35,163 nucleotides of DNA, taken from positions 1 through 35,163 of the forward strand of contig JAUNLD010000031.1 of the NCBI GenBank assembly GCA_030532425.1. The letters run 5' to 3'. Position numbers and translations under genes: made by a program. This DNA is from Lautropia sp. (GTDB lineage: Bacteria > Pseudomonadota > Gammaproteobacteria > Burkholderiales > Burkholderiaceae_E). The notes below the pieces were generated by a model. It worked only from the letters and a program-made list of their open reading frames with translations. It searched no databases and was not told the origin of the DNA. This document shows positions 2,173 to 32,258 of this stretch, in pieces (position 1 is the stretch's first letter; each line of letters opens with the position of its first letter).

Positions 2173-2368
2173 TCGGGTTTGCTTCGCAAGCCGTTCGTCG
2201 GCTGCCGATGCACAAAAGCAACGCCTGCACCGGCCCATGGCCTGGTCGCCCTGCCCTGCGTGGGCCAGCCGCGGCCCCGCCCCTCGCGGATGCTGAGATA
2301 CTACGGACTGCACCGGCATGCCCCTGGTGTTCCCCGCCTTTTCAGCCCACGCCGTCCAAGCCGACACC

Positions 2369-5300
2369 ATGAGCGCATCCAGCCCGAACGCCCATTCTGC
2401 CCACGCCACAGCTGCCTCCGCCCCTGCCGGGTGCGGGACACCACCGCCCCCGGCCACCAGCCCGCAGGCAGCGGTGGTGCGACGGGAGGATTACCGCGCG
2501 CCCGACTGGCTGGCCGAGAGCCTGGTGCTGCATGTCGTGCTGGCGCGCGACCGGACCGTGGTGACGGCAGCCTGCCACTACCGGCGTGCCGCCGATGCCC
2601 TGACCGATGCCCCGCTCTACCTGGATGGCGAAGGCCTGGAGACACTGGCGATCCAGATCGACGACCAGCCCCTGCCGGCCTCGCAGTGGCAGATGGCCGA
2701 CGGCCAGCTGTGCCTGAGCGGATTGCCGGCGCAGTTCACGCTGCATACCCAGGTTGCCATCAACCCGTCGGCCAACCTCGAACTGTCCGGGCTGTATGCC
2801 TCGGGCGGGATGCTGCTGACGCAATGCGAGGCACAGGGCTTTAGGCGGATCACGTGGTTTCAGGACCGCCCCGACGTGATGACCACCTACCGGGTGATCC
2901 TGCAGGCGCGGCAGGCCGATTACCCGGTGCTGCTGGCCAACGGCAACCTGCTGGCCGCGGACGCCCTGGCCGCACGCGATGCGCTGCAACAGCTGGCACT
3001 GCCCCTGCCGGCGCTGGCCGTGGCAGACGGCAGCACGCCCGCATCCGCCATCTCCGCAGCCGGCAGCGCAACGCCCCCGGAAAGGGCTGCCCACACCGAT
3101 GATGGCCGTGCACGCATCCACCTGCACCCCGTCACCGGCACACCCCTGGCCGGTGCACCCGGCTGGCATCAGGCCGTGTGGGAAGACCCCTTCCCCAAAC
3201 CCAGCTATCTGTTTGCCCTGGTGGCAGGCCGGCTGGCCGTGAACGAATCCCCCTGCCGGCTGGCGGACGGACGCGAGGTGCTGTTGCAGGTATGGGCCGA
3301 TGCCGCCCAGATCGGGCGTACCGATTTCGCACTGGCCAGCCTGAAGAAATCGATTGCCTGGGACGAGCAGCGCTATGGGCTGTCGCTGGACCTGGACCGC
3401 TTCATGATCGTGGCTGCGGCCGATTTCAACATGGGAGCGATGGAGAACAAGGGGCTCAACATCTTCAACGCCAAGTATCTGTTTGCCGACCCCGAGGTGG
3501 CCACCGACACCGATTTCGAGTGGATCGAATCGATCATCGCCCACGAATACTTTCACAACTGGACAGGCAACCGCATCACCTGCCGTGACTGGTTCCAGCT
3601 GACACTGAAGGAAGGGCTGACGGTGTTTCGCGATCAGGAGTTCACCGCCGACGTGATGGCGGCCGATGCCGGCCCACGCGCCGCTGCCAGCGTGCGCGCC
3701 CTGCAACGGATGGCCAACGTGCGGGCGCTGCGCCAGACGCAATTTGCCGAGGACGCCGGGCCGATGCGGCACCCTGTGCGCCCCGACAGCTATCAGGCCA
3801 TCGACAATTTCTACACCGCCACCGTCTACGAAAAAGGCGCCGAAGTGGTGCGGATGCAGCAGACGCTGGTGGGCGTCGACGGTTTCCGGCGCGGCATGGA
3901 CCTGTACTTTGCCCGCCACGATGGCCAGGCCGTCACCTGCGAGGCCTTCGTGGCAGCGATGGCCGATGCCAATGGCCGTGACCTGAGCCAGTTCATGCGC
4001 TGGTATGGCACGGCCGGCACCCCACACGTGCGGGTGCACAGCCACTACGACGCCACCAGCCGGCGGCTGCACCTGACGATGACCCAGCTGCTGCCGGATG
4101 CCGACGGACAGCTGAAGCCCGCCGGCGCACGTGCGCTGCACATCCCGGTGGCCACGGCACTGCTGTCGCGCCGTGACGGCCGCGAGCTGGCCAGCGCCCT
4201 GCTGGAACTGCGCGAATCGACCCAGGTGTTTTCCTTTGATGACATCGACCCGGCCGAGGGCGAAGCCACGGGGAGCGCAGACTTGGCAGCACCGACAGAT
4301 CCGCGCACGGCACCGCCACCTTCGCAGCCGGACAGCACCGCCCCTGCCGAAGGGCCGAGCGCACAGCCGGAGGTGCCTGAAGCCAGCGGCCGTGCCAACC
4401 GTGGACCGATCCTGTCGCTGCTGCGCGATTTTTCGGCGCCCGTCATCATCGAGCACGATTACAGCGACGGGGAACTGGCCTTTCTGCTGGCCCACGATGG
4501 CAACCCCTTCAACCGCTGGGAGGCAGGCCAGCAGCTGAGCGAGCGGGCGTTGCTGCGGGCCGTTCGCCAGCCCGATGCCCCCAATCCGACGCTGCCGGTG
4601 CTGGCCCAGGCACTGCAGCAGAGTCTGCAGGACCCGGGACTGGATGACGGCCTGCGCCAGCAGATGCTGCTGTGGCCCGACGAGAACCGCCTGGCCGAAC
4701 AGCTGGCGCTGATCGACCCGGCCGCGCTGCGCCAGGCCCGGCAAGGTGCCATCCGCCAGCTGCTGGAGCCGCTGCAACCCTGGCTGCGCCAGCAGGTGCA
4801 GGCCCGGCACTGGCAGGCACCGTGGTCCCTGTCGGTGGCGGCGGTGGGCCAGCGCGCCCTGGCCAACACGGCCCTGCAGCTGCTGGCCATGGCCGGCGAT
4901 GCCGAGGCCAGCCCCCTGGCCCGCGCGCAATTTGAAGGGGCCGACAACCTGACCGACCGGCTGGGAGCCCTCCAGGCACTGGTGCAGGCATCGGCTGCGG
5001 ATGCCGACTGGGCCCTGGAGCGCTTCGAGCGGCACTATGCGCAGGAAACCAACGTGCTGGACAAATGGTTCATGGTGCAGGCGCGCATGCACGGCCACGA
5101 CGGCCAGCCGACGCTGGCCCGGGTGCGCCAGCTGATGAAACACCCGGCCTGGGCCCCGCTCAACCCCAACAAGGTGCGCGCGCTGCTCTGGGCCTTCTTT
5201 GCCGACAATCTGGCCGAGTTCCACCGTCCCGACGGTGCCGGCTACCAGCTGTGGATCGACGAGGTGCTGCGCATCGACCGCCACAACCCACAGCTGGCCG

Positions 5301-5446
5301 CCCGTCTGGCACGCACGCTGCAACGCCCCGAACGCCACGTGGCCCCGCTGGCCGGCCTGATGACCGACGCCCTGCAACAGGTGGCAAGGCAGGCGCAGTC
5401 GCCCGATGTGCGCGAGGTGGTGGCCAAGGCCCTGGGGCAGGCATGA
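2369..5446 (+). CDS. pepN: Aminopeptidase N (M1 family zinc metallopeptidase)
   Basis: Cytoplasmic zinc aminopeptidase removing N-terminal residues from peptides in late protein breakdown. From the ATG at 2369, the exopeptidase motif GAMEN is at 356-360. The zinc site HEYFH is at 392-396, with the third ligand Glu415 in LKEGLTVF. The C-terminal helical DUF3458 region runs to the end. The product is 1025 residues, against 870 for E. coli PepN. The excess comes from an Ala/Pro-rich N-terminal extension (about 40 residues) and low-complexity insertions at about 220-262 and 633-679. The second, rich in Pro, Ala, Ser and Glu, lies between the catalytic and C-terminal regions. An ATG at 2318 would add 17 residues. 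I prefer 2369 because the added peptide resembles no signal or domain, but neither start has a Shine-Dalgarno. Confidence 0.93.
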   Translation: MSASSPNAHSAHATAASAPAGCGTPPPPATSPQAAVVRREDYRAPDWLAESLVLHVVLARDRTVVTAACHYRRAADALTDAPLYLDGEGLETLAIQIDDQPLPASQWQMADGQLCLSGLPAQFTLHTQVAINPSANLELSGLYASGGMLLTQCEAQGFRRITWFQDRPDVMTTYRVILQARQADYPVLLANGNLLAADALAARDALQQLALPLPALAVADGSTPASAISAAGSATPPERAAHTDDGRARIHLHPVTGTPLAGAPGWHQAVWEDPFPKPSYLFALVAGRLAVNESPCRLADGREVLLQVWADAAQIGRTDFALASLKKSIAWDEQRYGLSLDLDRFMIVAAADFNMGAMENKGLNIFNAKYLFADPEVATDTDFEWIESIIAHEYFHNWTGNRITCRDWFQLTLKEGLTVFRDQEFTADVMAADAGPRAAASVRALQRMANVRALRQTQFAEDAGPMRHPVRPDSYQAIDNFYTATVYEKGAEVVRMQQTLVGVDGFRRGMDLYFARHDGQAVTCEAFVAAMADANGRDLSQFMRWYGTAGTPHVRVHSHYDATSRRLHLTMTQLLPDADGQLKPAGARALHIPVATALLSRRDGRELASALLELRESTQVFSFDDIDPAEGEATGSADLAAPTDPRTAPPPSQPDSTAPAEGPSAQPEVPEASGRANRGPILSLLRDFSAPVIIEHDYSDGELAFLLAHDGNPFNRWEAGQQLSERALLRAVRQPDAPNPTLPVLAQALQQSLQDPGLDDGLRQQMLLWPDENRLAEQLALIDPAALRQARQGAIRQLLEPLQPWLRQQVQARHWQAPWSLSVAAVGQRALANTALQLLAMAGDAEASPLARAQFEGADNLTDRLGALQALVQASAADADWALERFERHYAQETNVLDKWFMVQARMHGHDGQPTLARVRQLMKHPAWAPLNPNKVRALLWAFFADNLAEFHRPDGAGYQLWIDEVLRIDRHNPQLAARLARTLQRPERHVAPLAGLMTDALQQVARQAQSPDVREVVAKALGQA

Positions 5447-5533
5447 CGCCCCCGGACCATCTTGTTGACAAGACTTTTCCTGGCACATGACCAGACCATC
5501 GAGACCGTTTTTCTTTCGTCAATTCCTGCCCTC

Positions 5534-21276: not shown

Positions 21277-22170
21277 TCAGGGCACCTGCCGTCCCTGCGC
21301 CGAAAAATACCGGGGCGGGCGCGGACGCAGCAGCTGATCCAGCCATTGCTTCAGGCGTTCGGCGCTGCCCCGACGCCGTTTTTCCAGCGGCAGCACGTTC
21401 CAGTCGACCTCCCCCACCCGGGCGATGCAGGCCGCCAGGTCTTCGTCGCGCAGCCGCGCCTCGGCCCAGAAGCGGGTGATGAAACGGTTCCACTCGGGCT
21501 TGTTGCCCCAGTAATGGCCGATGCTGTGCGCACAGTCCTGCATCGGCCCGGCATGATCGAGGGCCACCGCAAACGAGAACTGCTCGACCAGGCGGCGCGT
21601 GCAATCCGTCTGGCAGATGGCGTCGCAGACCCGCAGGGCGTGCTGTGCCAATGGCAATGCCCTGCCTGCCGGCAGACCGATGACACCGGCATTCCACATC
21701 GGACTGTCGTTGGTAATGCTGACCCCGGCAAACTGCTTGCCGACCAGACTGCGCTCCATGCGCACGAGGGTGGAATTGCTGCGACTTGAAAGCTTGTCTT
21801 CAAGACAATGCATCAGTGCCGTCCCCTGGTGCAGCGCCTGCGAGACCTCTTCAAGGCCCGTGGCCAGGAAGGTGTCGGAATCGATGTAGAGCAATGCCTG
21901 ATCGGGATCGCGTGCAGCAGCGGCCTCGATCGCCTTGATCTTGATGCGCCAGAAAAAACGCGATGCGCCCTGCCATTGCAGCAGGAGGTCGTCATCGACG
22001 GGGATGATCTCGACGCGATCGCCAAAGAAGCGGTAGAAACCGGGTTGGTCGGTCACGACCATCACCCGTCCCAGGCGGGCATCCTGCAGAAAGCTGAGCA
22101 GGGCAAAACTGGCCTGATTGTGATTGTCGAGCTGGGCACCAAAGGCCATCACCACCAGATTCACCGCCAC
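21277..22170 (-). CDS. GT-A-fold glycosyltransferase-like protein
   Basis: A 297-residue protein beginning with a GTG at 22170; an alternative ATG is seven codons in. The N-terminal half has alternating strands and helices (AVNLVVMAFGAQ, VMVVTDQPGFY) leading to YIDSDTF, with Asp97-Ser-Asp99 as a DxD metal/nucleotide-sugar motif. This layout is like GT-A transferases of the GT8 or nucleotide-diphospho-sugar type. Later WNAGVIGLP and HYWGNKPEW motifs also fit that fold. Being near LPS-core genes, it may act on LPS or capsule, but a gap of 243 bases and its own candidate promoter separate it from that cluster. The acceptor is unknown. Confidence 0.7.
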   Translation of the reverse strand: MAVNLVVMAFGAQLDNHNQASFALLSFLQDARLGRVMVVTDQPGFYRFFGDRVEIIPVDDDLLLQWQGASRFFWRIKIKAIEAAAARDPDQALLYIDSDTFLATGLEEVSQALHQGTALMHCLEDKLSSRSNSTLVRMERSLVGKQFAGVSITNDSPMWNAGVIGLPAGRALPLAQHALRVCDAICQTDCTRRLVEQFSFAVALDHAGPMQDCAHSIGHYWGNKPEWNRFITRFWAEARLRDEDLAACIARVGEVDWNVLPLEKRRRGSAERLKQWLDQLLRPRPPRYFSAQGRQVP

Positions 22171-22235
22171 GCTGCTGCGCTCCCGTCCCTTGCCTGCTTG
22201 ATGCGCCGCACATCGGGCGCGGCACCAGATCGGAG

Positions 22236-22265
22236 ATTATCCCTGCCCTTGCCCCCGGCACACAA
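22236..22265 (-). promoter_or_regulatory. Candidate promoter for the GT-A-like gene
   Basis: On the minus strand, TTGTGT (22265-22260) and GATAAT (22241-22236, 5/6) are 18 bases apart. The expected start is about 60 bases before the GTG at 22170. The -35 is weak (3/6). Confidence 0.35.
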
Positions 22266-22413
22266 GCCAGGTCGCATGATGCCCACGTTTTTGCCGGGGC
22301 GGCCACCTGGCTGGCGCCTCATCAGGCCGCGTGGCGGACCCGGAGCCCCCCAAGCACGTCTTCGCGGCGCCCAGCTTCACGGGACGGATCGAGCCTGTCC
22401 ATGCCGTTGCGGA

Positions 22414-24903
22414 TCAGCGCTCTCGCTGCCGGAACGAAGCCCCGAGCGCCTGCCAGCCGGCCTCGTCCAGCGCTGCCCAGCGATATTTCCAGAAGGTGCC
22501 CTGCGCATGCAGCCGGGCCACCGTCAGCCCATAACGGCCATCCAGAAAACCGGTGCGCAACACATAACCACGCAAAAAAGCCCAGCCCGCATGCGAGGCG
22601 GCGCGCAACAGCCCGCCCCGGCCACGGGCACGCAACATCGATGCCCCCAGAAAGGCATAGTCACGGGTCTTGGTCCAGGCGTCTTCCAGCGAGTCGACAC
22701 TGTCGTGCATCAGCATGCCATCCAGTACGCGGGTACGGCCGCTGCAGATCAGGCGTTCGTGTACCGGGTCGTTGGAGAAACGCCCCGAAGTTCGCTCGAA
22801 CAGACGCAGCACGCGATCGTTGCCCCACAGGCCGTGGGCAATGACCTGGCCGCAGAAGCGGCTGCTGCGCCTCAGCCAGTAGCCCACCACGGCACCGTCC
22901 TCCTCGTCCGGCTCGGGGTCGGCCGCCAGTGGTGGCGGTGGTGCGGCCACCCGCAAGGGAAGCGATGCGACGGCCGGCCGGTCATGCTGCGTGAGCACGG
23001 CCCGGATTTCTTCGGCCAGCGCCGGCGAGACCTGCTCATCGGCATCGATCGACAAGACCCAGCGATGGCGGCAACGCGCCAGCGCCCGGTTCTTCTGCGG
23101 ACCAAAGCCGGGCCAGTCGGGCGTGACCTCGACCTCGGCGCCCAGCGAGCGGGCAATGGCCACCGTGTCGTCGGTGCTGCCGGAATCCAGCACCACCACC
23201 TGATCGGCAAAGGCCACGCTCTGCAGACAGCGGGCGATGCTGTGTGCCTCATTCTTGGCAATGATCGCCACCGACAACCCGCCCGGTACCGACAGCATCT
23301 GCCGGCTGCCGTGCATCGCCCGCGCTGCTGCCCCCGCCAGCAGGCCACTGGCCCCCGGCGCCACCGCCGCATCACCGGCGGCCACGGCCGCCTGGGCCGC
23401 CTGTTGCCCGGTCACCGGGTGCCCGCCACTGGCCGAGGCTTCGGCCCGGGTGCGCCAGACCTGGGTGATGCCCTTGCCAGCCACGGCCAGCCCTGCCCCC
23501 ATGCCCACTTCGGCCGGATTCCCGGGCAGCGCGGTGACCGCCTGGCCACTGCACGCCTGCGCTGCCTGCCCGGGCGGCCCCTCTGCCACAGCGTGCGCCA
23601 GCTCATCCGCACCGCCCTGCTGCGCACGCCGCGCCGCCATGGCCTCCGGCATGCCCGCGGCCAGCAGCCAGCTGGCCAGCAGCAGATACGCGAGCATCGA
23701 GATCTGCCGGTCGAACATCGAATCGGTCATCGAGAAGACCGCAAACGACGACGACAGCAGCACCAGCATCATCGAGGCCTCGGGAGCCTGCCCACGCAGA
23801 AAGCGCCGCACCCCCACCCACAGGGGCGCCCAGAAAAACAGCATCACCACCAGCAGTCCCGGCACGCCGGCACCGGCAAAACCGGACAGGTATTCGTTGT
23901 GCGCCCCTTCGTAGAGGATCATCGCATCCGGGTCGACCTCACCGGTGCTGCGCTGGCGCCTGATCTCGGCCCCAAAGCCGGCAATGCCCACCCCGGTGAG
24001 CGGTGCATGGATGCCGGCCCGCACCGCCACCCCCCACAGCGCCAGCCGCTGGCCGACCTCGCTGTTCAGATCGCCTGCCATGAAGCGCTCGTATTGCGGT
24101 TCGATGTCGGCAAAGCGGGGCGCCAGCACGCGTGCGCCCCCCACCAGCACCAGAATCACCAGCATCGCCAGCAGCGGCGTCCGCCAGCGTGGCGCCCGCG
24201 GTACCAGCTGCCCCAGCTGCCGATAATGCTGATGCCGGCGCTGGCGACGCCGCACGCTTTGCAGGATCAGCAGCATCAGCACCCCGGCCGCCACGCCCAG
24301 CACGGCGCCCCGGGCCATGGTCAGCGCCACGGCCCCCAGGGCAGCGGCAAAACCGGCCACCCCCAGCAGACGCATCTTCTGCGAGTCGGCCTGCACGGCC
24401 AGCCACAGCGAGAACAGCCCCAGCACCACCGCCAGATCGCCGAACTTGATCGCCCCCGACCCCACCGAGCCGACCCCCAGGTGGCCCGGTGGCCGGTAGA
24501 TGCCCAGATACAGCCCCTGCCAGGCCGCCAGTGCAAAAGCACCGATGGCGCCCACGGCAGCGGCGGGCAGCAGCCAGCGCGAAGGCGCAGGCCCGCGTGC
24601 GGGCACCGTCGACAGCAGCACGCCGGCGCTGAGCGCGCACATCAGGATCTGGTCGGTGTCACGGGCCTGCAGATGGCCTGCCAGCATCTGCAGGATGATG
24701 AGCAGGCTGTAGCCGGCCAGCGGTACCAGCATCGCCCGCCCTTCGCGGGCACGATCGGCCAGTGCCGGCCACTGACGCCACTGGCCGGCGATGATCGCCG
24801 TCAGGCACACCAGTGCCACCAGCGGCGACTGCACTTTGGGCAAGGCCAGCAGACTGGCCAGATACAGGGCCAGCAGGCCATGACTGATTCGCACGATCGA
24901 CAT
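22414..24903 (-). CDS. Fusion of O-antigen ligase (WaaL-like) and LPS-core glycosyltransferase (WaaE-like GT2)
   Basis: An 829-residue protein with two enzymes in one frame. Residues 1-425 are polytopic (about ten hydrophobic segments). A large loop carries the ligase-type signature GAHNEYL with His335, matching the conserved periplasmic His of WaaL/Wzy_C proteins. Residues about 426-540 are an Ala/Gly/Gln-rich linker. Residues 542-829 are a GT2 domain: SVAIIAKNEAHSIARCL, VVLDSGSTDDT, a DxD-like SIDADEQ (Asp620, Asp622) and FSNDPVHERLI, as in WaaE/KdtX core glucosyltransferases. With WaaL termini in the cytoplasm, the GT domain would sit where nucleotide sugars are. Internal Met codons at residues 530 and 536 might allow a separate GT product, but no clear Shine-Dalgarno precedes them. 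It starts 2 bases after the upstream GT2 stop. Confidence 0.82.
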   Translation of the reverse strand: MSIVRISHGLLALYLASLLALPKVQSPLVALVCLTAIIAGQWRQWPALADRAREGRAMLVPLAGYSLLIILQMLAGHLQARDTDQILMCALSAGVLLSTVPARGPAPSRWLLPAAAVGAIGAFALAAWQGLYLGIYRPPGHLGVGSVGSGAIKFGDLAVVLGLFSLWLAVQADSQKMRLLGVAGFAAALGAVALTMARGAVLGVAAGVLMLLILQSVRRRQRRHQHYRQLGQLVPRAPRWRTPLLAMLVILVLVGGARVLAPRFADIEPQYERFMAGDLNSEVGQRLALWGVAVRAGIHAPLTGVGIAGFGAEIRRQRSTGEVDPDAMILYEGAHNEYLSGFAGAGVPGLLVVMLFFWAPLWVGVRRFLRGQAPEASMMLVLLSSSFAVFSMTDSMFDRQISMLAYLLLASWLLAAGMPEAMAARRAQQGGADELAHAVAEGPPGQAAQACSGQAVTALPGNPAEVGMGAGLAVAGKGITQVWRTRAEASASGGHPVTGQQAAQAAVAAGDAAVAPGASGLLAGAAARAMHGSRQMLSVPGGLSVAIIAKNEAHSIARCLQSVAFADQVVVLDSGSTDDTVAIARSLGAEVEVTPDWPGFGPQKNRALARCRHRWVLSIDADEQVSPALAEEIRAVLTQHDRPAVASLPLRVAAPPPPLAADPEPDEEDGAVVGYWLRRSSRFCGQVIAHGLWGNDRVLRLFERTSGRFSNDPVHERLICSGRTRVLDGMLMHDSVDSLEDAWTKTRDYAFLGASMLRARGRGGLLRAASHAGWAFLRGYVLRTGFLDGRYGLTVARLHAQGTFWKYRWAALDEAGWQALGASFRQRER

Positions 24904-24905
24904 GC

Positions 24906-25766
24906 TTACCTCTTGCCAGGGGGCGTGTATCGGTCGGTTTCCGGGCGCTGCTCCAGCCCCCTGCGGGCCTCGATGGCACCGCCGTTGCCGGCCATGAAGG
25001 CCCGCTCGCGGTTGCGCTCAGCCACATGGCGCGGCTCTTCGGGGTGCCAGAGATGGAGCACGGTGGTACTGAAACGCCCGCTTTTCAAACGGCCGCCGGC
25101 ATTGAACCAGCGCAGCACCAGGTCGGTATCCTCAAACCCCCAACCGACGATTTCTTCCTCGAATCCATTCAGGCGGATGATGTCATCACGCCATAATGCA
25201 ACATTACAGGTTTTGAACAGGCGCCAGGGCTGTCCGCGCATCCGCCGCCAGCCCTGCCCCGGCAGCTTCATCAGCCCCCAGGGACGGTTCACCTCACCGC
25301 GCAGCCACGCCTTCAGCCAGGCCAGGCAACGCCAGCGCAGCGGGTCGACGCGCCCCGCCTCGATGTCGCGGGTGATGCCTTCGGCCAGCAACACGCGATT
25401 GCCGGCCGTGGCATAACCGGGCTCGGCCAGCCGCCGGTGCCCGGCCACAAAATCGGGACGCATCAGGCAATCGCCATCGACGAAGACCAGCAGCTCGCCG
25501 TGCGCATCCCGTATCGCACGATTGCGCGAGGCGCTGAGCCTGAAGCCCTCGTCGGGCTGCCAGCAGTGCACCAGCCGCTCCCCGAGCACCGCCTGCCAGC
25601 GCTCCATCACTTCGGTCGTTTCCAGGCCCGAGCCATCATCCGTCACCACCACCTGTTCGGGGGGATCGGTCTGCGCGGCCACGCTGGCCAGCACGCGGTC
25701 CAGCGCAGCCGGGCGCTCGTACGTGGAAATGATGAGTGATACGGTGGGCAGGCGTGCAGCAGACAT
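24906..25766 (-). CDS. GT2 family glycosyltransferase with GT7-like C-terminal region
   Basis: 286 residues from the ATG at 25766. The GT-A domain starts TVSLIISTYERP, with TDDGS near 43-46 and the metal motif DGD at 97-99. The segment GWGFEDTDLVLR at 208-219 matches the C-terminal GT7/chondroitin-polymerase-like motif in which acidic residues help bind the sugar nucleotide. The protein is soluble and probably peripheral to the inner membrane. It lies 8 bases after msbA and 2 bases before the ligase fusion, so the three are almost surely co-translated. A role in LPS core or O-antigen sugar addition is inferred from context; the sugar is unknown. Confidence 0.85.
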   Translation of the reverse strand: MSAARLPTVSLIISTYERPAALDRVLASVAAQTDPPEQVVVTDDGSGLETTEVMERWQAVLGERLVHCWQPDEGFRLSASRNRAIRDAHGELLVFVDGDCLMRPDFVAGHRRLAEPGYATAGNRVLLAEGITRDIEAGRVDPLRWRCLAWLKAWLRGEVNRPWGLMKLPGQGWRRMRGQPWRLFKTCNVALWRDDIIRLNGFEEEIVGWGFEDTDLVLRWFNAGGRLKSGRFSTTVLHLWHPEEPRHVAERNRERAFMAGNGGAIEARRGLEQRPETDRYTPPGKR

Positions 25767-25774
25767 CGACAACC

Positions 25775-27682
25775 TCACTCGCTCAGGGTGCCGCCCGCGT
25801 GCAGGCGTGCATAGACGCCGCCGGCCGCCAGCAGCTGATCGTGGGTACCCGATTCGACGATGCGGCCATTGTCGAGCACCAGGATGCGGTCGGCCTTCTC
25901 GATGGTGGAAAGACGGTGGGCGATGATGAGGGTGGTCTGGCCATGCAGCAGCTTGTCGAGGGCCGCCTGCACATAACGCTCGGATTCGTTGTCGAGCGCC
26001 GACGTGGCCTCGTCCAGCACCAGGATCGGCGCGTTCTTCAGCAGTGCACGGGCAATCGACAGGCGCTGCCGCTGTCCGCCCGACAGGCGGATGCCGTTGT
26101 CACCGATCATCGTGTCCAGCCCTTCGGGCAACGAGGCGACGAAATCGGTCAGATAGGCTGCCTCCAGCGCGGCCCGCACCTCGGCCTCGGTGGCACCGCG
26201 GCGCCCTCCATAGGCAACATTGTTGGCGATGGTGTCGTTGAACAGCATCACCTGCTGGCTGACCCAGGCGATCTGCTGGCGCAGGCTTTCGAGCGTCAGC
26301 GATTCGATCGGGATGTCGTCGAGCAGGATGCGCCCCTCGGTGACGGAATAAAAGCGTGGCAGCAGATTGGCCAGCGTGGTCTTGCCGCCACCCGAGCCGC
26401 CCACCAGCGCCACCGTCTCCCCGGGCCTGATGTCGAGATCGATGTTCCTGAGCGCCAGGCCCGTGGCCCCCTCGTAGCCAAAGCTGACGTTCTCGAAGCG
26501 CAGCGCCCCGCGCGCGCGTCCGATGCGGCGGGTGCCCTTGTCCTTTTCCGTCGGTTCGTCGATGAAACGGAAGACCGCATCGGCTGCGGCAAAGGCCCGC
26601 TGAAGCTGGCCATTGACATCCGCCAGGTGCTTGAGTGGCGCCAGGATCATCAGCATCGCCGTCAGGAACGACACGAAGCCCCCCACCGTGGTGTGATCCT
26701 GCTGCGACTGATAGAGCGCGATGGCGATGACCACCGCCACGGCCACCGCCGCCATGATCTGCGTGATCGGCACAATCAGCGCCGAGGCCACCGTCATCCG
26801 CCGGGCAAAGGCCCGCAGCTGGCCGCTGGCCGAGGCAAAGCGCTTGCGCTCGTGATCCTGCCCGCCATAGACCTTGATGACCGGATTGCCGTGGATGGCC
26901 TCGCCAACCACACCGGTCAGCTCGCCGGTGTAGCGCAGCTGCTCGCCCGAGAGCCGGCGCATCCGCCGCGAGAATGCCCCGACCGCCAGCGCCACCATCG
27001 GGATCAGCACGAAGGCGATCATCGTCAGCTGCCAGTTCAGGTACATCAGCCAGCCCAGCAGCCCCAGGATCACCACCGAATCACGCACCATGATGACCAG
27101 CACCCCGGCCAGCGACTGGGTGACGTTCTGCACGTCGTTGACCAGCCGGGCGATGACGGTGCCGGAGGAATGGGCGGCAAAGTAGCCCACCGGCATCTGC
27201 ACCAGCCGGTTGAACATCTGCTGGCGCAGGTCGTAGAGCACACCGTTCGAGACCTCGTTCATCGCATAGTTCATCGTGAAGGTGAACACGCCACGCAGCA
27301 CGAACAGGCCGATGATGAGCAGCGGTGCCACCCACATCAGCTGCGAATCGCCATGGCCGCCGAAGCCGTCGTCGATCAGGTACTTCATGATGAAGGGCAG
27401 GACCGGCTCGGTGAGCGCGGTCAGCACCATGCCCAGCACGCCCAGCGCAAACGCGCGCCAGTGCGGCCTGACATAGCCCAGCAGGCGCCGCAGCAGCACG
27501 CGGTCGTTGGTGGGGGCAGGCGGCTCGTCGGCCGTGGCCGCCCCGTTGCCTTCGGGAGCCGCAGACGGCGATGCCCCGTGGGCCGCGGCCTCGGGGGAGG
27601 CGACAGCCTTCGCACCCTCGTCGGGCATCGGGCGCCCGGTCTCCTCTGTCATCCGCTCAGTCACAGCTCCGTATCCGTTCAT
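25775..27682 (-). CDS. msbA: Lipid A export ABC transporter (MsbA)
   Basis: Half-transporter flipping lipid A-core across the inner membrane. In its 635 residues a TM domain of six helices (about 65-365) precedes an ATPase with Walker A GGSGGGKTT (428-436), signature LSGGQRQRLS near 532, Walker B ILVLDEATSALD (Asp557, Glu558) and the H-loop IAHRLSTI. The first ~58 residues are an Ala/Pro/Glu-rich cytoplasmic extension, longer than in E. coli MsbA (582 residues). The ATG at 27682 overlaps the dnaE stop by 4 bases (ATGA). The assignment as MsbA rather than another multidrug half-transporter rests on sequence pattern and on the two LPS glycosyltransferase genes that follow. Confidence 0.92.
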   Translation of the reverse strand: MNGYGAVTERMTEETGRPMPDEGAKAVASPEAAAHGASPSAAPEGNGAATADEPPAPTNDRVLLRRLLGYVRPHWRAFALGVLGMVLTALTEPVLPFIMKYLIDDGFGGHGDSQLMWVAPLLIIGLFVLRGVFTFTMNYAMNEVSNGVLYDLRQQMFNRLVQMPVGYFAAHSSGTVIARLVNDVQNVTQSLAGVLVIMVRDSVVILGLLGWLMYLNWQLTMIAFVLIPMVALAVGAFSRRMRRLSGEQLRYTGELTGVVGEAIHGNPVIKVYGGQDHERKRFASASGQLRAFARRMTVASALIVPITQIMAAVAVAVVIAIALYQSQQDHTTVGGFVSFLTAMLMILAPLKHLADVNGQLQRAFAAADAVFRFIDEPTEKDKGTRRIGRARGALRFENVSFGYEGATGLALRNIDLDIRPGETVALVGGSGGGKTTLANLLPRFYSVTEGRILLDDIPIESLTLESLRQQIAWVSQQVMLFNDTIANNVAYGGRRGATEAEVRAALEAAYLTDFVASLPEGLDTMIGDNGIRLSGGQRQRLSIARALLKNAPILVLDEATSALDNESERYVQAALDKLLHGQTTLIIAHRLSTIEKADRILVLDNGRIVESGTHDQLLAAGGVYARLHAGGTLSE

Positions 27683-30600
27683 CGATAGCGCATCTCCACA
27701 CGCGCTTCGGTCAGCCAGCCGCGCAGGCTGGCCAACAGGGCATCATCCGGCTTGACCGCCCATTCGTGGCCCAACCGCAACACCGCGGCTGCATTATCGC
27801 CGTAATAATGAATTTCCACAGGACATCCCCCGCCCTGGCTGCCATCCACCCGGAACGGCTGCAGCAGCGTCTTCAGGCGCTCGGCCGTGTCGGGTCCGGC
27901 CCCCAGCGTCAGTTGCAGTGCGCGCGCATGCTCGCCGCGCGCATCGCCCAGATCCAGGATGCGCTCGACCGACAGCCGGTGGCCGCCGCTGTAATCATCC
28001 TTCGAGAGCTTGCCATGCACCACCACCAGCTGGTCTTCCCTGAGCAGGTGACGGTACTGGTCCCAGGCCTCGGAGAAAATGGCGATCTCCTCGCTGCCGC
28101 TGCCATCATCCAGCACCACCCTCACCATCTTGCCTCGTCGGGTCATGGCGGTGGACATCCCCACGACGATGCCCGCCACCGTCACCGGTGTCGAACCAAA
28201 ATGCTTGCCGACCATCTTTTCCAGGTCGCCGATGCGGGTCTTGACGAAGCGCCGTACCTCGTCGCGGCAGGCATCGAAGAGATGCCCCGACAGGAAGTAG
28301 CCCAGCGCCGATTTTTCTTCGAGCAGGCGCTGACGCTCGTCCCACGGCGTGGAGGGCAGCCACTCGCGCTGCGGCTTGCCGTCGTCACCCGCCAGGAAAT
28401 CATCGCCAAACAGCCCGCCCTGCCCGGCTTCCTGCTCTCGGGCCCGCTGTTCGGCTGCCTCCATCGCCTGCGGCACATTGGCCAGCAGGCGGGCACGGTC
28501 ACGATCGAGCCTGTCGAAAGCCCCGGCCCGCACCAGCGCCTCGATCGAGCGACGGTTGATGAGCCGGCGGTCGATGCGCTCGCAGAAATCGAACAGGTCG
28601 ACAAAAGGCCCATCCTGCTCACGCGCGGCAATCAGGTTCTCGATGGCCGACTGCCCCAGCCCCTTGATGCCACCCAGCCCGTAGCGGATGGCGCGCGGCC
28701 CGGCCGGTTCGAAGCGGTAGTTGGATTCGTTGATGTCCGGCAGCTGCACCTCGACCCTGTTGGCCTGCGCATCACGCACGAAGATCTGCACCTTGTCGGT
28801 GTCGTCCATGTCGGAAGACAGCGTGGCCGCCATGAACTCGGCTGGATAATGCGCCTTGAGCCAGGCGGTGTGATACGTGACCACCGCATAGGCGGCCGTG
28901 TGCGACTTGTTGAAGCCGTACTCGGCAAACTTCTCCATCAGGTCGAAGAGCTGGCTGGCCAGATCCAGATCCTGCCCGAGCTTCGTCGCGCCCTCCATGA
29001 AGATCTGGCGCTGCTTGGCCATCTCCTCGGGCTTTTTCTTGCCCATGGCACGGCGCAGCAGGTCGGCACCGCCCAGTGTGTAGCCGGCGATGATCTGCGA
29101 GATCTGCATCACCTGTTCCTGATAGACGATGACGCCGTAGGTCGGCTCCAGACAGTCTTTCAGGTCAGGATGGAAATAGTCGATTTCCTGCTCGCCGCGT
29201 TTGCGCAGGATGAAGTCGTCGACCATCCCCGAGCCGAGCGGGCCGGGACGATAGAGCGCCAGCACGGCGATGATGTCCTCGAAACGGTCGGGCTGCAACT
29301 TGCGCAGCAGCTTCTTCATGCCGTCCGATTCCACCTGGAAGATGGCCACCGTGTTGCCGTCGCGCAGGATCTGATACGCGGCCTGGTCGTCGAAGCCCAG
29401 CTCCTCCAGCACCAGCTCGGCCTCGCCCGCCTGCCTGCGGCGGGCGTTCACGTAATCGACCGCCAGATCCAGAATGGTCAGGTTGCGCAGGCCCAGAAAG
29501 TCGAACTTCACCAGCCCCACGGCCTCGACATCGTCCTTGTCGTACTGGCTGACCACCGACTCGGTGCCCGGCGCCTTGTAAAGCGGACAGAAATCCGTCA
29601 GCCTCCCCGGCGCGATCAGCACGCCCCCGGCGTGCATGCCGATGTTGCGGGTGAGATCCTCAAGCGGACGGGCCAGCGCAAACAGCTCGGCCACTTCCTC
29701 CTCGTTTTCCAGGCGCTCGGCCAGGATCGGCTCGGCCTTGAGCGCCTTGTCGAGCGACAGCGGCTTGGCCTGCTCGATCGGGATCAGCTTGGAGATCTGG
29801 TCGCAGAAGTTGTAGGGCATGTCCAGCACCCGGCCGGCATCACGGATCACGGCCTTGCTGGCCATCGTACCGAAGGTGGCAATCTGCGAAACCGCGTCGT
29901 AGCCGTACTTGCGCCGCACGTATTCGATGACCTGGCCGCGCTTGTCCTGACAGAAGTCGATGTCGAAGTCGGGCATCGACACCCGCTCGGGGTTCAGGAA
30001 GCGCTCGAACAGCAGCGCATAGGGCAAGGGATCGAGATCGGTGATGCCCAGCGCAAAGGCCACCAGCGAGCCGGCCCCCGAGCCTCGCCCCGGCCCCACC
30101 GGCACGCCATTCTGCTTGGCCCACTGGATGAAGTCGGCCACGATCAGGAAGTAGCCCGGAAAGCCCATGTTGATGATCGTGTCGCACTCGCGCTGCAGGC
30201 GGGCGTCGTACTCGGGCTTGCGCTCGGCCCGCACGGCTTCGTCGGGGTATTGCAGCGCCAGGCGCTTTTCCAGCCCCTCGGCCGCCAGCTGGCGCAGATA
30301 ATCCTCGATCGGCATCCCGCCTGGCGTGGGGTAGATGGGCAGCTGCGACTTACCCAGCGTCAGCGTGACCGCGCAGCGCCGGGCAATCTCGACACTGTTG
30401 GCCAGCGCCACCGGCAGGTCGGCAAACAGCGCCATCATCTCGGCGCGCGTCTTGAAATACTGCCCCTGCGTGAAACGCCGCACCCGCTTGGGATCGGCCA
30501 GCACCTCGCCCTCGGCAATGCACACACGCGCCTCGTGCGCACGGAACTCGTCGGCCTTCAGAAACTGCGTGGGGTGCGTGGCCACCAGGGGCAGGCCCAG

Positions 30601-31293
30601 CTCCACCGCCAGCCGGGCCGTGGCCCGCGTGCAGGCTTCGGCCTCGGGACTGCCATCGCGCTGCACCTCCAGATAGAAGGCGTCGGGAAAGGCGGCAGCC
30701 AGCCGCTGCGCCGCGTCGACGGCCCGGCCATGATTGCCCGCCAGCAGATGCTGGCCGACCTCGCCGCCCACCGCCCCCGCCAGCGCGATCAGGCCGTCGG
30801 TCTGCCCGGCCGCCAGCCACTCGGGCAGCAGCTCGGCCCGTCCCTTGTACTCGTTGTCCAGCCACCCGCGCGAGAGCAGCTCGCACAGCCGCCGGTAACC
30901 GGCATTGCTGGCCGCCAGCAGCAGCAGGCGATGGGGCCGGTCACGGTTCTCGGGGTTGCTGACCCAGACATCCGCCCCACAGATCGGCTGCAGGCCCTTG
31001 CCGGCGGCCTTCTTGTAGAACTTGACCCAGCCAAAGAGGTTGGAGGCATCGGTCAGCGCCAGCGCCGTCTGGCCATCGTCCACGGCAGCAGCCACCGCCT
31101 CGTCGATGCGCACGATCGAATCGAGCACCGAATATTCGGAGCGCAGGCGCAGGTGGACGAAGCCGGGCCCCGGGCCGGCAGCCGGAGCGGTGGCCGGTTT
31201 GGAGGCGATGCCGGCGGGTAACGACGCCGCCTGGGAGGCGGGGGCCACCGGTGTGGCCACCGGATCGGCAAGAGGGGGTGCGGACGAAGTCAT
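27679..31293 (-). CDS. dnaE: DNA polymerase III subunit alpha
   Basis: Replicative polymerase catalytic subunit of 1204 residues (E. coli 1160). After an Ala/Pro-rich extension of about 44 residues comes the PHP domain (FVHLRLRSEYSVLD). The polymerase core follows, with MPDFDIDFCQDKR containing the catalytic Asp444 and Asp446. Finger and beta-binding regions, an OB-fold (VTVAGIVVGMSTAMTRRGKM) and the C-terminal tau-binding part complete it. The first His-x-His of the PHP domain reads His47...Arg51, so one metal ligand is lost, consistent with a catalytically dead PHP. The ATG at 31293 gives this N-terminus. The frame stays open to 32256 only as antisense of trhO. No Shine-Dalgarno is present. 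The stop overlaps msbA by ATGA. Confidence 0.95.
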   Translation of the reverse strand: MTSSAPPLADPVATPVAPASQAASLPAGIASKPATAPAAGPGPGFVHLRLRSEYSVLDSIVRIDEAVAAAVDDGQTALALTDASNLFGWVKFYKKAAGKGLQPICGADVWVSNPENRDRPHRLLLLAASNAGYRRLCELLSRGWLDNEYKGRAELLPEWLAAGQTDGLIALAGAVGGEVGQHLLAGNHGRAVDAAQRLAAAFPDAFYLEVQRDGSPEAEACTRATARLAVELGLPLVATHPTQFLKADEFRAHEARVCIAEGEVLADPKRVRRFTQGQYFKTRAEMMALFADLPVALANSVEIARRCAVTLTLGKSQLPIYPTPGGMPIEDYLRQLAAEGLEKRLALQYPDEAVRAERKPEYDARLQRECDTIINMGFPGYFLIVADFIQWAKQNGVPVGPGRGSGAGSLVAFALGITDLDPLPYALLFERFLNPERVSMPDFDIDFCQDKRGQVIEYVRRKYGYDAVSQIATFGTMASKAVIRDAGRVLDMPYNFCDQISKLIPIEQAKPLSLDKALKAEPILAERLENEEEVAELFALARPLEDLTRNIGMHAGGVLIAPGRLTDFCPLYKAPGTESVVSQYDKDDVEAVGLVKFDFLGLRNLTILDLAVDYVNARRRQAGEAELVLEELGFDDQAAYQILRDGNTVAIFQVESDGMKKLLRKLQPDRFEDIIAVLALYRPGPLGSGMVDDFILRKRGEQEIDYFHPDLKDCLEPTYGVIVYQEQVMQISQIIAGYTLGGADLLRRAMGKKKPEEMAKQRQIFMEGATKLGQDLDLASQLFDLMEKFAEYGFNKSHTAAYAVVTYHTAWLKAHYPAEFMAATLSSDMDDTDKVQIFVRDAQANRVEVQLPDINESNYRFEPAGPRAIRYGLGGIKGLGQSAIENLIAAREQDGPFVDLFDFCERIDRRLINRRSIEALVRAGAFDRLDRDRARLLANVPQAMEAAEQRAREQEAGQGGLFGDDFLAGDDGKPQREWLPSTPWDERQRLLEEKSALGYFLSGHLFDACRDEVRRFVKTRIGDLEKMVGKHFGSTPVTVAGIVVGMSTAMTRRGKMVRVVLDDGSGSEEIAIFSEAWDQYRHLLREDQLVVVHGKLSKDDYSGGHRLSVERILDLGDARGEHARALQLTLGAGPDTAERLKTLLQPFRVDGSQGGGCPVEIHYYGDNAAAVLRLGHEWAVKPDDALLASLRGWLTEARVEMRYR

Positions 31294-31353
31294 GTTGCCG
31301 ATTGTACGGCCGGGGGGCCTCCCCCGTACGCAAGCGGCTCCGGAGGTTCTAGA
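31294..31353. promoter_or_regulatory. Divergent promoter region of dnaE and trhO
   Basis: Only 60 bases separate the two start codons. On the minus strand, TACAAT (31306-31301, 5/6) would place the dnaE start site at about 31294, next to the ATG at 31293, with no acceptable -35. On the plus strand, GGAGG (31342-31346) lies seven bases before the trhO ATG, and TAGAAT (31350-31355) overlaps that ATG. If TAGAAT were the trhO -10, the true start would be the ATG at 31366. Confidence 0.4.
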
Positions 31354-32175
31354 ATGGCCCCCATCATGCCAAGCACCCACCTGAACCTTGCTGCCTACCA
31401 TTTCGCCGACCTGAGCGAGCTGCCCGAACTTCGCCGCCACCTGCTGGCCGAAGGCCGGAAGGCCGACATGCGCGGCACCATCCTGCTCACGCCCGAAGGC
31501 ATCAACATCATGCTGAGCGGTCCGCTGGCGTCGGCGCGTGCCTACCGCGACGTGCTGCGCGCCATCCCCGGGCTGGGCCACATGCACATCAAGGAGAGCC
31601 TGTCGGACGCCCAGAGCTTCAACCGCTTCCTGGTCAAGATCAAGAAAGAAACCATCACCTTCCGCCAGCCGCAGATCCGCCCGGCCGACGGGCGCGCTCC
31701 CACCGTCTCGCCCGAAACCCTGGCTCGCTGGCTCGATGCCGGCCATGACGACGACGGCCGCGAGATCGCCATCGTCGACACCCGCAACGACTTCGAGGTG
31801 CAGGTCGGGCATTTCCGCAACGCCATCAACCCCCACATCCGCAAGTTCACCGAGCTGCCACAGGCACTGGAAGCCCACCGCCCCGCCCTGGAAGGCAAGC
31901 GTGTCGTCACCTACTGCACCGGCGGCATCCGTTGCGAGAAGGCAGCCCTGTGGATGGCCGACAACGGCTACCGGCACGTGGTGCAGCTCGATGGCGGTGT
32001 CCTCGATTACTTCGAGCACACCGGTGGACGGCACTGGGACGGCGAACTCTTCGTCTTCGACCGGCGCGTCTCGCTCACCCCCCGCCTGCAACCGGGCAGC
32101 TGGCAACAGGATTTCGACACCCGCACCGTCTTTCAGGCCGGAGAGCCGGCAGCAGCAGACACACCGGCGGCCTGA
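31354..32175 (+). CDS. trhO: tRNA uridine(34) hydroxylase TrhO (rhodanese-like, YceA family)
   Basis: Oxygen-dependent hydroxylation of U34 in tRNAs, the first step to cmo5U/mo5U, in the cytoplasm. Its 273 residues have the N-terminal ferredoxin-like part (GTILLTPEGINIMLSG, then HIKESLSD). The rhodanese domain follows, with VDTRNDFEVQVGHF and the active-site loop YCTGGIRCEKA, where Cys188 is the likely catalytic residue and Cys194 is conserved nearby. The ATG at 31354 has a GGAGG seven bases upstream; the ATG at 31366 is the alternative. The C-terminus lacks the long Cys-rich extension seen in some members. It is divergent from dnaE. Confidence 0.93.
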   Translation: MAPIMPSTHLNLAAYHFADLSELPELRRHLLAEGRKADMRGTILLTPEGINIMLSGPLASARAYRDVLRAIPGLGHMHIKESLSDAQSFNRFLVKIKKETITFRQPQIRPADGRAPTVSPETLARWLDAGHDDDGREIAIVDTRNDFEVQVGHFRNAINPHIRKFTELPQALEAHRPALEGKRVVTYCTGGIRCEKAALWMADNGYRHVVQLDGGVLDYFEHTGGRHWDGELFVFDRRVSLTPRLQPGSWQQDFDTRTVFQAGEPAAADTPAA

Positions 32176-32258
32176 GCGGCGCCCCCTCTGGACAAACCGG
32201 GCCACCGGCCCCATCTTTGCCGGGTTGCCCTGCGCGCCCTCCCTGACCCGTCCCACTC

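Follow-up and report, generated by a model that had tools for sequence, protein, structure and literature searches.

In Lautropia sp., one open reading frame encodes a candidate O-antigen ligase of the WaaL type followed by a candidate core glycosyltransferase of the WaaE type. It lies in a window of 35,163 nucleotides (contig JAUNLD010000031.1), the whole stretch of DNA that was analysed. We consider it probable, at about 75%, that the product is a bifunctional lipopolysaccharide enzyme formed by in-frame fusion of the neighbouring genes waaL and waaE, with the glycosyltransferase (GT2) domain tethered under the inner membrane. In its favour, the Brucella protein WadA, as described in PMC9938171, shows that a fusion of a glycosyltransferase and a ligase is able to work. 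Both domains would be active in a single polypeptide, and their coupling may be of benefit.

Translation of the frame yields 829 residues and zero internal stops, in agreement with the preliminary description of this DNA. Pfam identifies the Wzy_C domain (PF04932) at residues 184-353 (60.1 bits, cut-off 31.7) and the Glycos_transf_2 domain (PF00535) at residues 544-642 (59.3 bits, cut-off 23.3). NCBIfam produces glycosyltransferase matches only, all far below their own cut-offs. Both Pfam domains are present and their catalytic motifs are conserved, which bears out the proposal that a WaaL-type ligase has been joined to a WaaE-type GT2 enzyme. The linker between them is Ala/Gly-rich, as had been noted; its length, given before as about 115 residues, is 122 residues with the present boundaries (417-538). 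In the genome of the window (G000) the fused protein has a single other match, a 93-residue piece with 47% identity.

Table. Features of the fused gene and its neighbourhood (positions in the window)
Feature	Position	Strand	Evidence and remarks
Fused waaL-waaE ORF	22414..24903	-	829 codons and TGA stop; single open frame
O-antigen ligase (Wzy_C) domain, residues 1-416	23656..24903	-	12 predicted transmembrane segments; Pfam, hydropathy, AlphaFold2 helices, match to 7tpg_B
Wzy_C core of the ligase domain	23845-24354	-	Pfam PF04932
His335 codon (GAHNEYL)	23899..23901	-	stands opposite the AHND histidine of 7tpg_B
Linker, residues 417-538, Ala/Gly-rich	23290..23655	-	helix modelled at 419-441; pLDDT <50 at 449-524 and 530-536
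GT2 domain, WaaE/KdtX type, residues 539-829	22417..23289	-	Pfam PF00535; Klebsiella homologue; invariant motifs
Shine-Dalgarno-like site AAGAGG of the fused gene	24909..24914	-	immediately precedes the stop codon of the upstream GT2 gene
Upstream GT2 glycosyltransferase gene	24906..25778	-	Pfam PF00535; 2 bp between its stop and the ATG of the fusion
msbA, lipid A-core flippase	25775..27682	-	TIGR02203, 771.1 bits, cut-off 602; 4-bp overlap with the GT2 gene
dnaE	27679..32256	-	NF004226, 1482.5 bits, residues 365-1521 of the longest ORF

The ligase domain can be aligned with PDB chain 7tpg_B over residues 19-371 (E 1.2e-5). His335, whose place in the AHNEYL motif was confirmed, stands opposite the histidine of that chain, and Arg198 and Arg286 are aligned with its two arginines; the three are presumably the catalytic residues of O-antigen ligase. 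They do not vary among the nine Lautropia ligase sequences, one of which is an unfused tandem paralogue in G001. The residues D573, D620, D622, H715 and E716 of the GT domain, which form the DxD and other motifs, are unchanged in all 21 homologues.

Hydropathy analysis reveals 12 segments, with His335 in a loop of 85 amino acids after segment 9. The loops after even-numbered segments contain 18 Lys and Arg vs 4 acidic residues, and those after odd-numbered segments 12 vs 14. Given the number of segments and these charges, both termini and the GT domain are predicted to be cytoplasmic, and His335 periplasmic. The arrangement suggested earlier, with the ligase centre in the periplasm and the GT domain in the cytoplasm, is thus supported at the level of prediction. 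An AlphaFold2 model based on a 40-row alignment (mean pLDDT 83.8, with values of at least 90 for 552 of the 829 residues) has two confident domains and a linker mostly below 50. The linker is mostly predicted to be disordered, and a helix is modelled in its first part. At a pTM of 0.65, the model does not fix how the two domains sit relative to each other.

The GT domain has a homologue in Klebsiella pneumoniae, flanked by waaA on one side and coaD on the other; this we take to be the position of waaE. By homology, the Lautropia domain is of the WaaE/KdtX/LgtF type. The identity to the Klebsiella gene, 36.7% over 90% of the query, points to beta-1,4-glucose as the probable sugar and heptose I as the probable acceptor, as WaaE is described as a heptose I beta-1,4-glucosyltransferase (PMC5372535). 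Genes of the GT9 (heptosyltransferase) family are present in all nine Lautropia genomes, three in G000 and two or three in each of the others, and could be the source of the heptose acceptor.

The gene order on the minus strand is dnaE, msbA, GT2, fused waaL-waaE. The true start of dnaE is probably near position 31164, because the homology, in the longest ORF, begins only at residue 365.

A search of nine Lautropia genomes yielded a match in each. Both domains are in one open frame in four of them, with lengths from stop to stop of 867 (G000), 859 (G001), 726 (G002) and 795 codons (G007). Four others (G004, G005, G006, G008) have the ligase and the GT as two adjacent genes in different frames, the stop of the ligase overlapping or adjoining the start of the GT. 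In G003 the gene is cut by the end of the contig, some 30 nt ahead of the GT homology; this short part is free of stops and uninformative on fusion.

The linkers, measured from the last ligase helix to the GT domain, consist of 122 (G000), 120 (G001), 35 (G002) and 95 amino acids (G007). Their content of Ala, Gly, Ser, Pro and Thr is 51-64%, and all are open in the frame of the fusion. No evident common sequence was observed among the four. The linker of G001 contains short repeats. After mononucleotide shuffling, the chance of an open linker is 0.20 (G000), 0.065 (G001), 0.53 (G002) and 0.11 (G007). Taken alone, the open linker of G000 is no surprise. The product of the four chances is about 0.0007, a value that is indicative only, given shared ancestry.

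Trees of individual genes give a mixed picture of the history. The fused genes group together on the ligase tree (91/92), with the unfused paralogue of G001 inside, and on the GT tree (89/69), with G003 inside. On the tree of the upstream GT2 gene, G000 is outside the other Lautropia genomes except G004 (85/87), the DnaE tree groups it with the split species (85/97), and its position on the MsbA tree is not resolved. The AU test does not reject a single clade (p 0.084; p 0.116 on a concatenation of three genes). One fusion, two fusions, or a fusion with a later split are all possible.

The joined frame could have explanations other than a bifunctional enzyme. The genome of the window is a draft (125 contigs, 88.78% complete), and the preliminary description warned of a sequencing error that might hide a stop or frameshift in the linker. 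However, the fusion is seen in four separate assemblies, whose linkers differ and whose frames contain no stop. Because G007 is a single contig and G002 consists of 6 contigs, an artificial joining of two genes is excluded in practice, and we assign it a negligible probability. A different possibility is that the frame is fused and the proteins are not, the GT domain being mainly a separate product of internal starts; residues 530-536 had been proposed as such starts. Indeed, G000 and G002 have ATG codons close to where the GT domain begins, and Shine-Dalgarno-like motifs precede ATG 422 in G000 (GGAGG, 2 nt away) and ATG 469 (AGGA) and ATG 478 (GAGG) in G001. On the other hand, none of the four fused genes has such a motif in front of an in-frame start within the final 90 nt ahead of the GT domain, in a scan that had less than 20 nt of upstream sequence for the first codons. 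Rescanning of the whole linkers gave motifs at one of 12 starts in G000 and two of 11 in G001, none close to the GT domain, and at none of the five starts in G002 and none of the six in G007. In G001 and G007 the 70 nt next to the GT homology contain no ATG. Linker insertions and deletions would be expected to break the frame were it unimportant. The split genes of G006 and G008 have a clear Shine-Dalgarno box (GGAG or GGAGG) and an ATG at the GT start; G004 has GAGG at a poor distance, and G005 has none by the same list of motifs. Judging from these signals, starts near the GT domain lack Shine-Dalgarno-like sites and are unconserved, and separate synthesis as the main route to the GT domain is improbable. 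One polypeptide is the simplest reading, possibly with a minor internal product, and cleavage of the chain within its linker is conceivable.

The identity of the N-terminal domain has to be considered as well, since Wzy_C is common to ligases, O-antigen polymerases and protein O-oligosaccharyltransferases. An enzyme of one of the two latter classes would fit this sharing, the presence of two further Wzy_C proteins in G000, and the words 'polysaccharide polymerase/ligase' in the title of the PDB match. However, the gene is in the msbA operon and is joined to waaE, whereas the two other Wzy_C genes of G000 adjoin genes for asparagine synthase and polysaccharide deacetylase in one case and WecG and an epimerase in the other. 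Pfam finds neither PglL_A nor Wzy_C_2 in the fused protein, and the same library detects both in L058. At a threshold of E 0.01, the domain matches nothing in the PDB other than 7tpg, which we take to be WaaL of Cupriavidus metallidurans. Thus another activity is unlikely, if slightly less so than separate synthesis of the GT domain, and the domain is a putative lipid A-core O-antigen ligase, although sequence alone does not separate ligase from polymerase. A stronger competitor is a neutral event, in which the stop between two close genes of an operon was lost and the domains act as if alone, with no coupling. One genus holds both the split and the fused state, the length of the linker is not conserved and its sequence has no evident conservation, and the split genes are so tightly spaced, or overlapping, that fusion is a small step. 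Against this, the fused state is common to species whose ligases are about 60% identical, and changes of linker length preserve the frame. Moreover, relatives have ligases fused with another family of glycosyltransferases, and WadA, as reported, is a similar case (PMC9938171). We regard a neutral fusion as a serious possibility, somewhat short of even odds.

Outside Lautropia, the combination was sought at three taxonomic levels. The survey of the family consisted of a Wzy_C search of 74 genomes (9 Lautropia), 71 of them with a match, and all 39 frames of at least 600 amino acids among the matches listed, the window included, were examined with HMMs for the WaaE-type GT and for GT9 built from sequences gathered in the present analysis. 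The WaaE-type HMM recognised four of the 39 listed frames, all from Lautropia, and the GT9 HMM eight; 27 were negative for both. The ligase HMM recognised 35 of the 39. Pfam was applied to nine long frames of the family from outside Lautropia and to L068 and L072. Together, Pfam and the local HMM show that eight genomes of the Lautropia family have an open frame (L044, L045, L065-L069, L072) in which Wzy_C precedes Glyco_transf_9. These frames have at least four origins on a ligase tree of 45 rows with long branches, in which G001 is represented by one ligase only, by its label the unfused paralogue.

At the level of the order, the best matches of a Wzy_C search of 250 genomes (226 with a match) were considered together with a GT search of 140 genomes (54 with a match at 1e-25). 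Twelve further Burkholderiales loci were scanned, a biased sample in which seven (L106-L112) were chosen for close survey rows, L092-L094 for GT hits and L104-L105 for long frames. Eleven of the 12 have the ligase and, behind it on the same strand, a WaaE-type GT; L105 has no ligase. In ten of these 11 loci the two genes overlap or are at most 60 bp apart, and in one they are separated by about 240 bp. Among the matches listed, the two genes are not adjacent in four genomes: they are separated by about 1 kb in G118, G120 and G163 and lie on opposite strands in G170.

In a sample of 90 genomes of the phylum (81 with a match, best matches considered), four frames of at least 700 amino acids were among the matches listed. 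They are from G000, G398 (a TPR extension), G386 (GT25 and Wzy_C) and G388, where the ligase ORF counted from the first start codon has 499 amino acids. One ORF of this sample (L131, 696 amino acids) has the domain order of WadA, GT25 then Wzy_C.

Several other long frames were rejected as fusions. The WaaE-containing frames of G014 and G026 (723 and 664 amino acids) are rich in Arg in their upstream part and seem to be open by chance. There is no ligase near the GT in G101 (706 amino acids), and in G245 (743 amino acids) the ligase and the GT are in different frames. The frame of 1439 codons in G054 is really two frames of 1178 and 260 codons with a stop between them. The long frame of G037 encodes a GT2 domain and an FkbM methyltransferase instead.

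If the Lautropia protein is indeed bifunctional, it could work as follows. The last ligase helix and the flexible tether would keep the C-terminal GT2 domain beneath the inner membrane. There, in the cytoplasm, this domain would extend the lipid A-core precursor by a sugar, which homology suggests to be beta-1,4-glucose on heptose I. The product would be flipped by MsbA, encoded in the same operon. The ligase domain would then pass the O-polysaccharide from Und-PP to the lipid A-core at the periplasmic face via His335. The fusion would set a 1:1 ratio of the two activities and place the core transferase at the membrane near MsbA and the ligase. A tether of 35-122 residues would be unable to carry a substrate across the membrane, and so the fusion probably determines, at most, the stoichiometry of the two activities, their place at the membrane and how near they are to MsbA. 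A rigid channelling machine is disfavoured because the lengths of the linkers are very unequal. A single chain with a cytoplasmic site of core completion and a periplasmic site of O-antigen attachment lets one ask about coordination across the membrane, and split and fused orthologues inside one genus form a ready-made comparison.

The preliminary description knew of no protein with such an architecture. However, WadA of Brucella is a published bifunctional protein in which a cytoplasmic N-terminal core glycosyltransferase is combined with a C-terminal O-antigen ligase, so that the active sites are on both faces of the membrane; Servais et al. 2023 termed it a new class (PMC9938171). According to the same paper, its glycosyltransferase adds a core sugar before flipping by MsbA, and the ligase acts afterwards. 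In searches of the open-licence PMC literature, none of the entries listed names the Lautropia fusion, and no paper on a Lautropia O-antigen ligase was found.

Taken together, the Lautropia fusion, WadA and the GT9 fusions suggest that ligases have been fused with core-type glycosyltransferases repeatedly. More tentatively, and in our opinion rather doubtfully, joining a ligase to the enzyme that readies its acceptor would be a recurrent case of convergence, with GT2 in Lautropia (perhaps twice), GT9 in four or more further ligase lineages of this family and GT25 in the WadA type, and the chains would act as a quality control across the membrane, each capping only the core completed by its own cytoplasmic half. 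The Wzy_C and Glyco_transf_9 frames resemble the Lautropia fusion in having a ligase-family domain followed by a glycosyltransferase; unlike it, they carry GT9, and they are separate on the ligase tree.

Among single-domain relatives, the structures 7tpg and 7tpj ('putative cell surface polysaccharide polymerase/ligase') match the ligase domain, but the chain has 413 residues, the match ends at residue 348, and there is no GT domain. The separate WaaL and WaaE proteins of Burkholderiales have the same kinds of domain and the same gene order, often with overlapping genes, but are two polypeptides, whereas the Lautropia fusion is one. WadA is closer in this respect. In both proteins one chain combines a cytoplasmic core glycosyltransferase with a 12-helix ligase that has a conserved periplasmic histidine, these features being predicted in Lautropia and described for WadA (PMC9938171). 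The WadA-like ORF L131 carries GT25, whereas the Lautropia fusion carries GT2 and a linker of 35-122 amino acids and, set beside WadA, corresponds to two adjacent genes of its own relatives. In WadA the glycosyltransferase is N-terminal (amino acids 1-266) and the ligase C-terminal (267-703; PMC9938171), and in Lautropia this order is reversed, with the ligase first and GT2 last. By analogy, the Lautropia protein should work like the WadA class; the reversed order of the domains and the GT2 domain would be what is new.

Single open frames in which a Wzy_C ligase domain is followed by a domain of the heptosyltransferase family Glyco_transf_9 (GT9) were found in eight genomes of the family to which Lautropia belongs. 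These frames have at least four origins in one ligase tree (45 rows, long branches). In locus L065, the N-terminal end of the frame also matches part of GT9. In locus L091, a WaaE-like GT2 domain and an FkbM methyltransferase domain are joined in one frame.

Another Lautropia genome with the ligase-glycosyltransferase fusion (locus L034) has a second, unfused ligase gene immediately 3' of the fused one. A variable loop of its glycosyltransferase domain contains a collagen-like repeat, scoring 21.3 bits against Pfam Collagen, under the cut-off of 27.2. The equivalent loop of the window protein (residues 646-666) is a low-confidence region of the predicted model, and the loop length varies between Lautropia species.

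Coordinates of the frames and features considered
Feature	Location	Strand	Length (aa)
Wzy_C + Glyco_transf_9	L044:2917-5397	-	
Wzy_C + Glyco_transf_9	L045:3160-6564	-	
Wzy_C + Glyco_transf_9	L065:2270-4831	+	
Wzy_C + Glyco_transf_9	L066:360-4937	+	
Wzy_C + Glyco_transf_9	L067:1785-4244	-	
Wzy_C + Glyco_transf_9	L068:2113-4707	+	
Wzy_C + Glyco_transf_9	L069:1363-4746	+	
Wzy_C + Glyco_transf_9	L072:1812-5207	-	
GT25 (N-terminal) + Wzy_C (C-terminal)	L131:3044-5134	-	696
WaaE-like GT2 + FkbM	L091:2611-4209	+	533
Unfused ligase	L034:4917-6368	+	
Collagen-like repeat	L034:4048-4173	+	
Longest dnaE ORF	window 27679-32256	-	
Very long antisense ORF	window 21808-25416	+	1202
Very long antisense ORF	window 2342-5488	-	1048

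The longest dnaE ORF of the window has 364 additional N-terminal codons without DnaE homology, and its start is probably over-long. Both very long antisense ORFs are likely chance frames in G+C-rich DNA; no Pfam match to the 1048-aa one was found.

The reverse domain order, glycosyltransferase then ligase, is seen in an ORF (L131) whose genome belongs to a different class within the same phylum, and is similar to that of WadA of Brucella.
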